In this document: piece after piece, positions 4,815-13,660 of the stretch | How the letters are laid out: each line of letters starts with the position of its first letter | Position numbering within the stretch: position 1 is the stretch's first letter | Source of the DNA: Melioribacteraceae bacterium | Lineage (GTDB): Bacteria; Bacteroidota; Ignavibacteria; Ignavibacteriales; Melioribacteraceae | DNA: 36,805 nucleotides | Assembly: GCA_028282005.1 (NCBI GenBank) | Contig: JANQIV010000041.1 | Coordinates: 1-36,805 of the forward strand | Reading direction: 5' to 3' | The notes under the pieces: model-generated | Databases searched by the model: none | What the model saw: only the letters and a program-made list of their open reading frames with translations | Told to the model about the DNA's origin: nothing | Program-made: the position numbers and the translations under genes

Positions 4815-5159
4815 AACATGATCCTTTGTTTTTTATTATCCAAAATTAAGTTATAAAATAAATTGCAAAAAATAAGCTCATCAAATGAAATGATTTATTT
4901 TATACCTGTAACTTTGAATCATTCATCAACTTTACTATTTTAGTAAACACAAATTGAATCCTACTGGAGCAGCGGGTTGAAAAGATAAAAAACGGATAAA
5001 GATAATTTACAGATGATTTAATAAATCTTGTTAGCAGAAGTTTTTCGGTGAAGTATCTTTACCCGTTCTTTTCTCCCGTGGTCCAATAAACCGCGATAAG
5101 CGGTTTTCTCTTTTTAAACCGCAATAACAATTCATAATTATTCACAAAAGAGAAAAGTC
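4815..5159 (+). promoter_or_regulatory. Leader of the ABC-F gene with candidate transcription attenuator / anti-SD switch
   Basis: The roughly 345 bp before the ABC-F gene hold an ordered set of elements. A GTG-initiated 13-codon ORF (5048-5089, peptide MKYLYPFFSPVVQ) has a weak AGAAG upstream. Its stop codon overlaps the left arm of a 7-bp hairpin, AAACCGC (5088-5094) with GCGGTTT (5100-5106), which is followed by a pyrimidine tract TTCTCTTTTT. A second AAACCGC at 5116-5122 can compete for the same GCGGTTT. TTTTCTCTTTT (5104-5114) is a perfect 11-bp complement of AAAAGAGAAAA (5146-5156), which contains the Shine-Dalgarno of the ABC-F gene. This is consistent with attenuation as in known antibiotic-inducible ABC-F genes. 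The upstream part (4815-5000) shows nothing else. Confidence 0.6.
5048..5089 (+). CDS. Candidate leader peptide upstream of the ABC-F gene
   Basis: This short frame starts at GTG and encodes MKYLYPFFSPVVQ, followed by TAA. The stop overlaps the first two bases of the proposed terminator stem, the position expected of a leader ORF whose translation state sets which hairpin forms. The peptide is aromatic- and proline-rich, which could favour stalling (inference). An AGAAG lies 7 bases before the GTG. The frame is short enough to be chance, and its ATG-less start lowers confidence. Confidence 0.4.
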   Translation: MKYLYPFFSPVVQ

Positions 5160-6662
5160 ATGAGTAAAAATTTTTTAGAATTCAATAAAGTTTCATTTGG
5201 TTATGAATCGGCTGTTGAAAATTTATTTGAAAATATTACATTCCGTTTGCACAAAGGGTGGACGGGAGTTATCGGACCAAACGGTTCGGGTAAAACAACT
5301 TTACTGAAATTAGCTTGCGGTGATTTATTTAATTATTCGGGAAGTATTCAACAACCTTTTGCAAAAGTTTATTGTGAACAAAGAACAGACTTAGCACCTA
5401 AAAAGCTGGAAGAGTTTTTTAATGATCATAGCAAAATTGCCTATAAATTAATAGATAGCTTCAAGCTAAGTTCTGGCTGGATGAAAAGGTGGCAAAGCCT
5501 TTCGCACGGTGAAAGAAAAAGGCTGCAGCTCGCATTAGCACTTTGGGAATCTCCTGAATTACTTGCTATAGACGAACCAACTAATCATCTTGATGTTGAG
5601 GCCAAAGAAATAATTATTAACTCACTTCTAAGTTATAAAGGCGTTGGTATAATTGTAAGCCATGACCGTGATGTGCTTGACAATTTATGCGGCAGAATAC
5701 TTTTTATTGAACCGCCTAAAGTTACTATGCGGCAGGGTAATTTTACTCAAGCTTCAGAACAAAGGTTACTTGAGAATAAACATACTTTGAAAGCGTTTGA
5801 GATAAAACAAAAGCAGTATGGCAAACTTCAGAAAGAATATAAAAGAAGAAGTGAATTGGCAGATAAGTCAAAGAAAAAATCGTCGAAAAGAAACATTGAT
5901 AGAAAAGACCGCGATGCTAAATCAAAAATTGATTTAGGAAGATTAACAGGAAAAGACGCAGTTGGAGGTAAACTCAAAAATCAAATTACAAACCGTTTAG
6001 AAAAGGCGCAAAGTGATCTCAACAGCATCGAGGTAAAAAGAGAATACGCTACCGGGATTAATTTATTGGGAAGCGAATCGCAGAGAAATTTTTTGTTAAA
6101 ATTGGACGCTGGCGAGATAGATTTATCAAGAAATAAAAAACTGTTTCACAATGATTTGATTATTGTTCCTAATGATAAGATTGCACTTACCGGTGTTAAC
6201 GGTTGCGGGAAAAGCACACTGGTTAAGTTAATTATCGACAAATTGAACATTGAAAAAGGGAAGCTCACTTATATTCCTCAAGAAATTTCCGTTGATGAAA
6301 TAGCAGAAATAATTAAAGAGGTAAAAGATCTTTCCAATGAAGATTTAGGAAAGTTGATGATAATAATCAGCCGACTTGGCTCTGATGCAAAAAGAGTTTT
6401 GGAAACGGATTCCCCAAGTCCCGGCGAAACCAGGAAAATACTTTTGGGCTTAGGCATAACCCGCAGCCCGAATATAATAATTATGGATGAGCCTACAAAT
6501 CACATGGACTTGCTTTCAATTGAGTGTTTGGAAAATGCATTAAAAGAAGTTTCTTGCTCCCTGCTATTAGTCAGTCACGATAAAAGATTTTTGGAATCGC
6601 TGACAGAAAAAGAGTGGAGAATTGAACAGAGTGGAGTCGATTATAATTTAATTCAATTATAA
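5160..6662 (+). CDS. ABC-F family ATPase, possible ribosome protection protein
   Basis: This 500-residue cytoplasmic protein has two ABC domains and no membrane segment, the layout of the ABC-F family that acts on the ribosomal E site. Domain 1: Walker A GPNGSGKT (39-46), signature LSHGERKRLQLA (about 114-125), Walker B AIDEPTNHLD (D138/E139). A long charged, Lys-rich linker (about 190-300) follows; in antibiotic-resistance ABC-Fs this region reaches the peptidyl-transferase centre. Domain 2: Walker A GVNGCGKST (345-353), degenerate signature SPGETRK and Walker B IMDEPTNHMD (D443/E444). The second signature lacks the usual LSGGE, as in several resistance-type ABC-Fs. The leader with candidate attenuator supports drug-inducible expression. 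The housekeeping alternative (EttA/Uup-like) is less likely given the short length and divergence. Confidence 0.85.
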   Translation: MSKNFLEFNKVSFGYESAVENLFENITFRLHKGWTGVIGPNGSGKTTLLKLACGDLFNYSGSIQQPFAKVYCEQRTDLAPKKLEEFFNDHSKIAYKLIDSFKLSSGWMKRWQSLSHGERKRLQLALALWESPELLAIDEPTNHLDVEAKEIIINSLLSYKGVGIIVSHDRDVLDNLCGRILFIEPPKVTMRQGNFTQASEQRLLENKHTLKAFEIKQKQYGKLQKEYKRRSELADKSKKKSSKRNIDRKDRDAKSKIDLGRLTGKDAVGGKLKNQITNRLEKAQSDLNSIEVKREYATGINLLGSESQRNFLLKLDAGEIDLSRNKKLFHNDLIIVPNDKIALTGVNGCGKSTLVKLIIDKLNIEKGKLTYIPQEISVDEIAEIIKEVKDLSNEDLGKLMIIISRLGSDAKRVLETDSPSPGETRKILLGLGITRSPNIIIMDEPTNHMDLLSIECLENALKEVSCSLLLVSHDKRFLESLTEKEWRIEQSGVDYNLIQL

Positions 6663-6707
6663 AAAATTGTGAAGTAACCTTCGTGTTTTGCTAACATAAT
6701 TTTAAGA

Positions 6708-6740
6708 ATACCTTGAAGGTTTTCAAATCCTTCAAGGTAT
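6708..6740. repeat. Perfect inverted repeat (12-bp stem) after the ABC-F gene
   Basis: ATACCTTGAAGG (6708-6719) is the exact reverse complement of CCTTCAAGGTAT (6729-6740), with a 9-base loop. No T run follows on either strand, so it may act as an mRNA 3'-end stabiliser or be an intergenic palindromic repeat rather than a classical terminator. Confidence 0.7.
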
Positions 6741-6860
6741 CTATGCGATATGATTCTGACGTGAAGGCTTATTTTATATTATCAGGTCCCGGTCATGGTA
6801 AAATTACCAATTGAAAAATTATTTTATTAGCTTACAAAATAAAATTCAGCTTACGAGGTA

Positions 6861-11614: not shown

Positions 11615-11630
11615 ATGTTACCGGTAACAT
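11615..11630. promoter_or_regulatory. 16-bp perfect palindrome, likely LacI-type operator of the cellulase gene
   Basis: ATGTTACCGGTAACAT is a perfect palindrome centred on CG, 72 bp before the cellulase start. Its form (even length, central CG, TGTTACC half-sites) fits operators of LacI/GalR-family sugar regulators. The first three bases make a spurious ATG in frame with the cellulase gene, but this is a regulatory site, not a start codon. Confidence 0.55.
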
Positions 11631-11701
11631 TATTATATTGTTTTTATACTCTCAAATTTTGTTTATCACTTTTAATAGTATATCTTTTTCATGGAGTAAA
11701 A

Positions 11702-13660
11702 ATGTTTATAAAAAAATCAAATCTCAGTTTCGGTGTTTTTCTAGCAGTTTTCTTTTGCTTATTGCTCTCCGATACATTCGCAAATTCATATTTATTATCT
11801 CAAAAACAGCCGACATTTTCATCATCTATTGAGCTGGAATCACTAAGTGCAGAATATGCGGTTGACGGTGATATCTCAACTCGCTGGGCTTCTGCTGAAG
11901 GTTCTGACCCGGAATGGATCTATGTTGATTTAGGCATCGAGGCTTCGGTTGATAGTATTGTTTTGCACTGGGAGACCGCTTACGGCAAAGAGTATGAACT
12001 TCAGGTTTCTAACGACGCAAATACATGGACAACTATTTATTCAACCACAGATGGTAAAGGCGGAGTTGAAGAACTCTCGGTTTCCGGAAATGGCCGTTAT
12101 GTGCGGATGTTCGGTATTGCAAGGGGAACACAGTGGGGCTACTCTTTATGGGAGTTCAAAATTTATGGTGATTTTGCCGGAACCAAAACTTATGATCTGG
12201 GCACACAAGTGATTGGTTCAGGCATAATCAATCCTTCCGGAGGCACATACAGCGAAAATGTTTGGGCAGAAATTGAAGCAGTAGCAGATTCAGGCTGGCT
12301 CTTCGAACATTGGGATGGGGATTTGTATGGAAATACAAATCCAACAGCAGTTAAAATGGATTCCGACAAAAATATAACTGCTGTATTTAAACAAAAACTT
12401 TCGCCTTCTCAATCACCTGTCGCTATTAACGGTCAATTAAGTGTTGACGGACTTAATCTAGTTAACCAATACGGCCACCCTATTCAGTTACGGGGCATGA
12501 GCACACATGGATTGCAATGGTTTTGGGATAACTATACAGACGAATCATTAGATGTACTCGCTTATGAATGGGGTGCGGATATTTTACGAATTTCTGTGTA
12601 CGTTCAAGAAGGAGGATGGGTCACTGATCCAGCCGGTTTCACTGCAAAAGTAAGTACTCTAATTGATAAAGCAACTGACCGTGGCATGTATGCGTTAGTT
12701 GATTGGCATCAGCTTCAGCCGCCTGATCCGAATTATAATTTGGATAACGCGATTACATTTTTTACCGATATTGCAACAGCTTATAAAGATTATAACAATA
12801 TAATTTATGATATCTGCAATGAGCCGAGTGATGTAAGCTGGAACACCATAAAAACATATGGTGATGCAATTATTCCGTTGATCCGCGCCATAGATTCTGA
12901 TGCAGTGATATTAATAGGAACACATGGATGGGCGACATTTGGTGTGTCTGACGGAAGAACACATCAGGATATTCTTGATAATCCTCTGAATTATCCCAAC
13001 ATTATGTACACTTTCCATTTTTATGCAGCCAGTCATCAGGAAAGCTATTTAGATGAATTAGATGCCGCATCGGATGTGCTGCCTGTATTTGTAACTGAAT
13101 TTGGAACACAAACTTACTCCGGCGATGGTACAAATGACTTTGGCTTTGCGCAGAAATACATCGATCTGATGGCGCAGAAGAAGATCAGTTGGACGAATTG
13201 GAATTATTCGGATGATTTCCGCTCCGGTGCGGTTTGGAAGAATCCGAATACAGGCGCAAATAATGGCCCTTGGACAGACGCTAACCTTAAAGAATCTGGT
13301 CTTTGGATAAAGGATAAAATATCGAATCCTGCTGATGATTTCCCAATAGATGTTACATCAGTAACTGATCCGGCTGTGTTAACAACTGAGATATCAGATA
13401 GATTTGAAGTTTACCAGAATTATCCAAATCCGTTTAATCCGACTACAAAAATAAAATACTCAATTCCGCAATCTTCTTTTGTTTCATTAAGAGTTTATGA
13501 TTTATTAGGCGAAGAAATAATGACTTTGGTTAATGAAGAGAAATCAATTGGAAATTATGAAGTGGAGTTTAACGGTAGTAATCTTTCTAGTGGAATTTAT
13601 TTTTACAGATTCCAGTCCGGTAGTTTTATTGAAACAAAGAAACTCATTTTAGTGAAATAA
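11702..13660 (+). CDS. Secreted GH5 cellulase with F5/8 (CBM32-like) domain and T9SS sorting domain
   Basis: This 652-residue extracellular endoglucanase-like protein has a signal peptide (1-27). A discoidin-type F5/8 carbohydrate-binding domain follows (about 30-155: AVDGDISTRWASAEGSDPEWIYVDLG at its core). Next is an InlB-type/Flg_new repeat (about 168-240, with WLFEHWDGDLYGN). The GH5 TIM barrel (about 243-540) contains RGMSTHGLQW, the acid/base E374 in DICNEP and the nucleophile E466 in VTEFGT. The tail (575-652, YPNPFNPTTKIKYSIP to GIYFYRF and TKKLILVK) is a type A T9SS sorting domain. The start at 11702 is chosen because GGAG lies 4 bases upstream and a signal peptide follows at once; an upstream in-frame ATG lies inside a palindromic operator. 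Confidence 0.93.
   Translation: MFIKKSNLSFGVFLAVFFCLLLSDTFANSYLLSQKQPTFSSSIELESLSAEYAVDGDISTRWASAEGSDPEWIYVDLGIEASVDSIVLHWETAYGKEYELQVSNDANTWTTIYSTTDGKGGVEELSVSGNGRYVRMFGIARGTQWGYSLWEFKIYGDFAGTKTYDLGTQVIGSGIINPSGGTYSENVWAEIEAVADSGWLFEHWDGDLYGNTNPTAVKMDSDKNITAVFKQKLSPSQSPVAINGQLSVDGLNLVNQYGHPIQLRGMSTHGLQWFWDNYTDESLDVLAYEWGADILRISVYVQEGGWVTDPAGFTAKVSTLIDKATDRGMYALVDWHQLQPPDPNYNLDNAITFFTDIATAYKDYNNIIYDICNEPSDVSWNTIKTYGDAIIPLIRAIDSDAVILIGTHGWATFGVSDGRTHQDILDNPLNYPNIMYTFHFYAASHQESYLDELDAASDVLPVFVTEFGTQTYSGDGTNDFGFAQKYIDLMAQKKISWTNWNYSDDFRSGAVWKNPNTGANNGPWTDANLKESGLWIKDKISNPADDFPIDVTSVTDPAVLTTEISDRFEVYQNYPNPFNPTTKIKYSIPQSSFVSLRVYDLLGEEIMTLVNEEKSIGNYEVEFNGSNLSSGIYFYRFQSGSFIETKKLILVK

Follow-up and report, generated by a model that had tools for sequence, protein, structure and literature searches.

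A candidate drug-sensing attenuator with a three-codon upstream ORF precedes an ABC-F gene in a Melioribacteraceae bacterium

The leader of an ABC-F gene in a Melioribacteraceae bacterium (GCA_028282005.1, contig JANQIV010000041.1; "the window" is the whole stretch of 36,805 nucleotides analysed) is probably a ribosome-mediated transcription attenuator, which would sense drug through a three-codon upstream open reading frame (uORF) encoding MKR and respond through competing RNA arms A, B, C and D (Table 1). The broader reading, that a ribosome-sensing attenuator with competing arms controls the gene, is well supported by sequence comparison, because the arms are conserved in two orthologues, the A/B/C/D logic recurs in Desulfatibacillum and the micro-uORF is conserved. 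An earlier note on this DNA had proposed an attenuator with a leader peptide for the ABC-F gene. Its competing arms and ribosome sensing hold, but its sensor, stalling mode and burial of the Shine-Dalgarno (SD) sequence are not supported. The well-supported candidate for the sensor is the MKR uORF, which the note did not mention; it lies ∼70 nt upstream of the 13-codon ORF proposed there and, with its SD and the left arm of helix P1 (4965-5010), falls outside the interval first reported.

Table 1. Features of the ABC-F gene and its leader, in window positions
Feature	Position	Strand	Evidence or remarks
Micro-uORF Shine-Dalgarno TGGAG, 7 nt 5' of TTG	4965..4969	+	GGAG at 7-8 nt in L009, L010, L016, L110
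Helix P1 (anti-antiterminator), 5' side: UGGA, CA, CGGG, GAAAAGA (uORF codons), ACGG, UAAAGAUA, UUUAC	4965..5010	+	MFE
Arm A CGGG, adjoins uORF start codon	4973..4976	+	Pairs with CCCG 5075-5078 in MFE
Micro-uORF TTG AAA AGA TAA (MKR, stop)	4977..4988	+	MKR-stop in L010, L014, L110; MKRA-stop in L009
Helix P1, 3' side: GTG of 13-codon ORF, AUCUUUACCCGUU, UCUUUUC, arm B	5048..5085	+	MFE; AUCUUUANCCGUU kept in L009 and L010
Arm B CCCGTGGT (CCCGTGG core)	5075..5082	+	Pairs with A (P1 base) or C (antiterminator P2)
Arm C AAACCGCG	5088..5095	+	Pairs with B, or with D as 5' arm of P3 (AAACCGC 5088-5094)
Arm D GCGGTTT 5100-5106 and U-tract to 5115	5100..5115	+	3' arm and tail of intrinsic-terminator-like P3; terminator scan
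Arm E AAACCGC	5116..5122	+	Pairs with D (P4) in read-through RNA; invariant in L009 and L010
Probable Shine-Dalgarno of ABC-F gene, GAGAAAAG	5150..5157	+	Sequence not kept among leaders compared
ABC-F ATPase, 500 aa, ribosomal-protection-like	5160..6662	+	NCBIfam score and predicted fold

The ABC-F product matches PF00005 in two stretches and so carries two ABC domains; its AlphaFold2 model (pLDDT 88.9) has long linker helices between them and no membrane domain, the arrangement of antibiotic-resistance (ARE) ABC-F proteins. The best NCBIfam profile was ribo_prot_ABC_F, at 315 bits under a cut-off of 380, and scores against the named subfamilies Lsa, Sal, Msr and Vga fell far under each cut-off. 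The closest folds in the PDB were VmlR2 (TM 0.75), VgaL, VgaA-LC and LsaA (TM 0.74), at 23-24% identity, and as other ABC-Fs also match the predicted fold, the ARE-ABCF-like shape is present but not exclusive. Judged from these models, a ribosome-protecting resistance protein is probable. The bacterium's own genome holds no second close copy of the gene, only 3 others among the 79 genomes of the family have an orthologue, and 395 genomes sampled across the phylum gave no extra orthologue outside the family. Further orthologues are patchily spread over Desulfobacterota-type, Aminicenantes, spirochaete, Lentisphaerota/Verrucomicrobiota, Coprothermobacterota and other genomes; such disjunct presence has been read as a hint of resistance function in ABC-F proteins (PMC6723617). 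A DNA search found no plasmid copies of the gene, and a protein search of plasmids returned four records at 29-31% identity. The nearest orthologues, L009 and L010, share 57% protein identity with the window protein, and that of Desulfatibacillum (L016) shares 47%. Elsewhere in the window, a strong hairpin (ATACCTTGAAGG/CCTTCAAGGTAT, 6704-6741) without a U-tract lies directly past the ABC-F stop codon, and the protein at 11615-13660 ends in a C-terminal tail of NYPNPFNPTT type, which presumably fits a Bacteroidota-related group.

The window, L009 and L010 share a conserved stretch, CTGGAGACAC-GGG-TTG AAA AGA, upstream of the interval first reported. The peptide MKR recurs with other codons in an Aminicenantes leader (L014, ATG AAG AGA TAA) and in a member of the class of Desulfatibacillum (L110, TTG AAG CGA TAG). 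Related uORFs encode MTR (L012), MKNA (L016), MRI (L109, L144), MRK (L111), MRL (L035), MRN (L113, L126, L129, L145) and MKNAD (L027, L115), each followed by a stop. Of the 71 orthologue leaders, 17 had an SD-preceded uORF of the form M[KR]x{1,3}-stop, where shuffled sequences gave a mean of 0.8 and a maximum of 3; MKR-stop alone occurred three times and never in the shuffles. Residue 2 was Lys or Arg in 18/24 SD-preceded uORFs of 3-5 codons, compared with 14% in shuffles (binomial p ∼2e-11, a value that is too strong because the orthologues are related and not independent). The micro-uORFs are scattered across the ABC-F protein tree, and ∼50 orthologues, including a 21-row Lentisphaerota/Verrucomicrobiota clade, have no M[KR]x-type uORF. 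The leader thus carries a conserved uORF of 3-4 codons with its own SD, as in the short-uORF class of attenuators. TTG or GTG replaces ATG as the start codon in the window (4977), L009, L010, L012, L016, L109, L110, L111, L129 and L145, which would perhaps hold initiation on the micro-uORF low.

The peptide is kept where the RNA sequence differs (L014, L110, L129, L144), which speaks against the alternative that the small ORF is incidental and the leader binds a ligand, as a riboswitch, or a protein. The stable, conserved structure could be an undescribed RNA, as Rfam gave no match at gathering score, just two sub-threshold chance matches to microRNAs; known-type ABC-F genes use uORFs, however, and we find either form of this alternative hardly credible. 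A promoter at the same place, TTGAAA-18-GATAAT (4977-5006), would start transcription at ∼5013 and leave the MKR frame untranscribed. These hexamers agree with the sigma-70 consensus at 10/12 positions and are largely retained in L009 and L010, but such matches occur in the region at chance frequency (49 found, 52.9 expected), and L016 and L110 lack the second hexamer while keeping SD and uORF. Moreover, the stretch pairs with 5054-5073 through inner pairs that covary, and a promoter leaves the synonymous MKR variants of other phyla unexplained, making this reading improbable. As a candidate promoter we also rejected a TAnnTTTG box 5' of the uORF SD, seen by eye in the window (4908-4915), L009 and L010, since it occurs too often in AT-rich DNA and its position varies too much.

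Downstream of the uORF, four pairings compete: A:B, B:C, C:D and D:E. The earlier note had described AAACCGC arms at 5088-5094 and 5116-5122 on either side of one GCGGTTT (5100-5106), followed by a pyrimidine tract, and all of these are present as described; the triple occurs once in the window and in none of 100 shuffles. Folding of 5040-5170, which the note had suggested, gave -31.3 kcal/mol, far better than shuffles (z -4.8). The longer segment 4958-5125 reached -49.3 kcal/mol (z -4.2), and P1 is the long dominant fold once the upstream part is included. Its 5' pieces (UGGA/CA/CGGG, 4965-4976; GAAAAGA, 4979-4985; ACGG and UAAAGAUA, 4992-5004; UUUAC, 5006-5010) face GUGAA (5048-5052), UAUCUUUA (5054-5061), CCGU (5063-5066), UCUUUUC (5067-5073) and CCCG, UG and UCCA (5075-5085). 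The proposed comparison of orthologous leaders, for which three were closely alignable (window, L009, L010), bore out the arms but not the 13-codon ORF. Across this trio, unchanged cells numbered 12/12 in B:C, 13/14 in C:D and 14/14 in D:E; arms B, C, D and E are nearly invariant while the flanks diverge, and all six pairs of P2 (5077-5082:5090-5095) are the same in L009 and in L010. C-GGG of arm A is retained in both, with GCGGGTTG in L016. P1 is mostly retained (17/102 broken cells over the whole MFE structure), and its inner extension has two-sided changes, A-U to G-C in both relatives and U-A to U-G to C-G; with three sequences, this covariation supports P1 at a level below proof. A local hairpin at 5047-5063 was discarded, as 6/14 of its cells are broken in relatives and 6 are changed on one side.

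The frame from GTG to TAA at 5048-5089 is open for 13 codons, as the earlier note had said, ends at arm C among the competing arms and has a 13-codon GTG counterpart in L010. That counterpart, however, lies in another frame and encodes an unrelated peptide, VQIIFIRSFLARG, and L009 has none. In the window the frame has no convincing SD, and its GTG (5048-5050) is buried in the right arm of P1. A ribosome stalled here was supposed to cover the left AAACCGC, but the conserved uORF is the one upstream and would act through the anti-antiterminator helix P1, so we regard sensing by the 13-codon ORF as very unlikely. The note had further proposed that an 11-bp complement (TTTTCTCTTTT, 5104-5114; AAAAGAGAAAA, 5146-5156) buries the SD. 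The complement is exact in the window but absent from both nearest orthologues, which leaves such burial unsupported; near-matches to its purine tract are common in the window (15, with 7.2 expected). A partial complement, CTTTTCTC, is present at 5068-5075, as described.

The Desulfatibacillum leader provided an independent case, which we compared arm by arm because a four-way MAFFT alignment misaligned its 3' half. Its uORF region reads GCGGG-TTG AAA AAC GCA TAA. P1 has a different sequence (TAAACCGGAA with TTCCGGTTTA), B:C is formed by CCCGTGGC:GCCATGGG, and C:D (GCCATGGGG/CCCCGTGGCTTTTTTT) is a textbook terminator at the equivalent place, upstream of the SD. The persistence of A:B, B:C and C:D despite the changed sequence is an argument that the mechanism is under selection.

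From the conserved elements we infer the following scheme, in which transcription would start ahead of the uORF. In the absence of drug, the ribosome would complete MKR and depart, whereupon P1 would close and lock up arm B; arm C, left free, would pair with D, and RNA polymerase would terminate at the U-tract (∼5107-5115). With drug, a ribosome stalled on the uORF, at its start or in its first codons, would cover arm A and the 5' foot of P1, so that B could pair with C before D is made and block the terminator; D would later pair with E, and the ABC-F gene would be transcribed. As likely inducers we propose, by analogy, peptidyl-transferase drugs of pleuromutilin, lincosamide or streptogramin A type: such drugs halt ribosomes within the first codons, and the predicted shape of the protein resembles VmlR2, VgaL and LsaA.

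Co-transcriptional folding was calculated with RNA polymerase at chosen points, with the uORF start codon either free or covered by the footprint of a ribosome. With polymerase at the end of C, arm B of the free window RNA formed 6.9 pairs with the 5' region and B:C only 0.05, whereas B:C rose to 5.8 pairs with the ribosome; in L016, it went from 2.2 to 8.0. Switching was less clean in L009 and L010, where B:C had largely formed at this point even without the ribosome; through the U-tract, their C:D pairing fell from 6.8 to 0.07 and from 4.8 to 2.0, respectively, when the ribosome was added. L109 has the arms and gave no clear switch in the same calculation. In silico, the leader accordingly forms mutually exclusive anti-antiterminator, antiterminator and terminator helices, the uORF lying in the first. 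At equilibrium through the U-tract, adding the ribosome leaves C:D favoured in the window. The model is therefore a kinetic one: it requires B:C to form first, as the order of transcription provides.

A terminator-like hairpin with a U-rich tail is found in the window (7 bp, interrupted U-tract) and L010 and is strong in L016, while L009 ends in CCCATTTT, a poor terminator; the modest window hairpin and the poor one of L009 make a translational component possible. The same MKR sensor might even act mainly on translation, with P1 opening to rearrange B, C, D, E and the SD region and thereby expose the ABC-F ribosome site, and termination playing a minor part. Arm E, which can act only after the U-tract has been transcribed, is invariant, unexplained by attenuation of transcription only; the window SD can pair with either pyrimidine tract; and in CplR and VmlR both levels of control act together (PMC10201436, PMC9226507). 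Yet neither the SD nor its complements are conserved within the trio, the window SD is paired in both calculated states, and the strong L016 terminator stands upstream of its SD. We therefore consider mainly translational control unlikely, if the most serious alternative, and prefer transcription attenuation through the MKR uORF.

Other orthologue leaders differ in layout. In the seven spirochaete members L116-L121 and L123, an ATG some 69-77 nt from the gene runs straight into a stop codon, which is TAA in four leaders and TGA in the other three. This start-stop pair sits 6-7 nt past a TATAAT-like box with a TTGAC-like -35, which makes it leaderless at the predicted 5' end of the transcript. 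Behind it comes TATATTAACC, the complement of GGTTAATAT at the ribosome site of the gene, and on this sequence the pair could possibly be the smallest conceivable translation attenuator. The 21 rows of the Lentisphaerota/Verrucomicrobiota clade (L017-L028, L130-L142) lack M[KR]x micro-uORFs close to the gene, which suggests different or constitutive control. The L023 leader has ATG CAC TCC TGA (MHS-stop), of which CACTCCT exactly complements AGGAGTG, the SD of the gene; a ribosome on this frame would therefore leave the SD free. In L144, the stop of MRI extends into the left arm (AAACAGTA) of a hairpin that resembles a terminator and ends in TACTGTTTTTTGGAG at the gene's SD, and stalling would block that arm directly.

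More tentatively, M-[Lys/Arg]-x-stop may be an old drug sensor shared by Ignavibacteria-like, desulfobacterial, Aminicenantes, spirochaete and Coprothermobacterota genomes, with its basic residues under selection and the spirochaete version shrunk to a leaderless AUG-stop at the mRNA 5' end; we hold this to be possible rather than probable. If it is true, selection on the basic residues implies that arrest is sequence-dependent even for drugs thought to be context-free. That the M-K/R-x logic precedes genes of an uncharacterised ABC-F family in several Gram-negative phyla suggests drug-inducible resistance, not housekeeping, and the uORF gives an immediate handle on which drugs induce this family.

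By analogy, the window leader would work like the short-uORF attenuators of VmlR, CplR and VgaL type in Gram-positives; it is a known kind of attenuator in a lineage where, as outside Gram-positives generally, we found no ABC-F leader of this type described in the open literature, the scope of our search. The Gram-positive uORFs encode MIN (variants MDN, MDK, MRK) for VmlR, MR[I/M] for CplR, MK[L/Q] for VmlR2 and MAGN for LsaA (PMC9226507, PMC10201436), and induction of VmlR by lincomycin and pleuromutilins has been ascribed to initiating ribosomes becoming arrested on the uORF (PMC9226507). Like Bacillus subtilis vmlR (PMC9226507), the window has a three-codon uORF with its own SD, a predicted 5' anti-antiterminator stem-loop, an antiterminator alternative, an intrinsic-terminator-like hairpin and then the SD region, in a leader of ∼200 nt upstream of a probable ARE-ABCF gene. 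It differs in phylum, in its TTG start, in Lys-Arg instead of Ile-Asn, in an extra D:E hairpin and in having no conserved SD-sequestering helix; we saw no sequence homology between the two leaders, and the ABC-F and VmlR share ∼25% identity in their structural alignment. The Listeria lmo0919/vgaL leader (rli53), according to a review (PMC11550727), is comparable in placing a conditional transcription terminator upstream of an ABC-F gene, with induction by lincomycin, but belongs to a different lineage and has a different sequence. The spirochaete members with the start-stop pair in place of a three-codon uORF (487-509 aa, AT-rich, phylum of spirochaete L013) fit the description of a 505-aa ABC-F and probably belong to the same orthologous protein group as Brachyspira tva(A)/tva(B) (PMC6018095). 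Tva-type proteins are linked to reduced pleuromutilin susceptibility (PMC6018095), and this orthology, if true, ties the ABC-F family to it. Clostridioides difficile cplR (MR[I/M]) and Neobacillus vmlR2 (MK[L/Q]) (PMC10201436) share with the window an ultra-short uORF and a basic residue 2, and attenuation by stalling would be a further common trait. The cplR terminator stem sequesters the SD, whereas the candidate terminator of the window ends about 35-40 nt upstream of its SD; the cplR-type MRI itself recurs in L109 and L144. The recurrent basic residue 2 bears on a question raised for VmlR and CplR (PMC10201436), namely whether the stalling of initiating ribosomes by peptidyl-transferase drugs depends on sequence.
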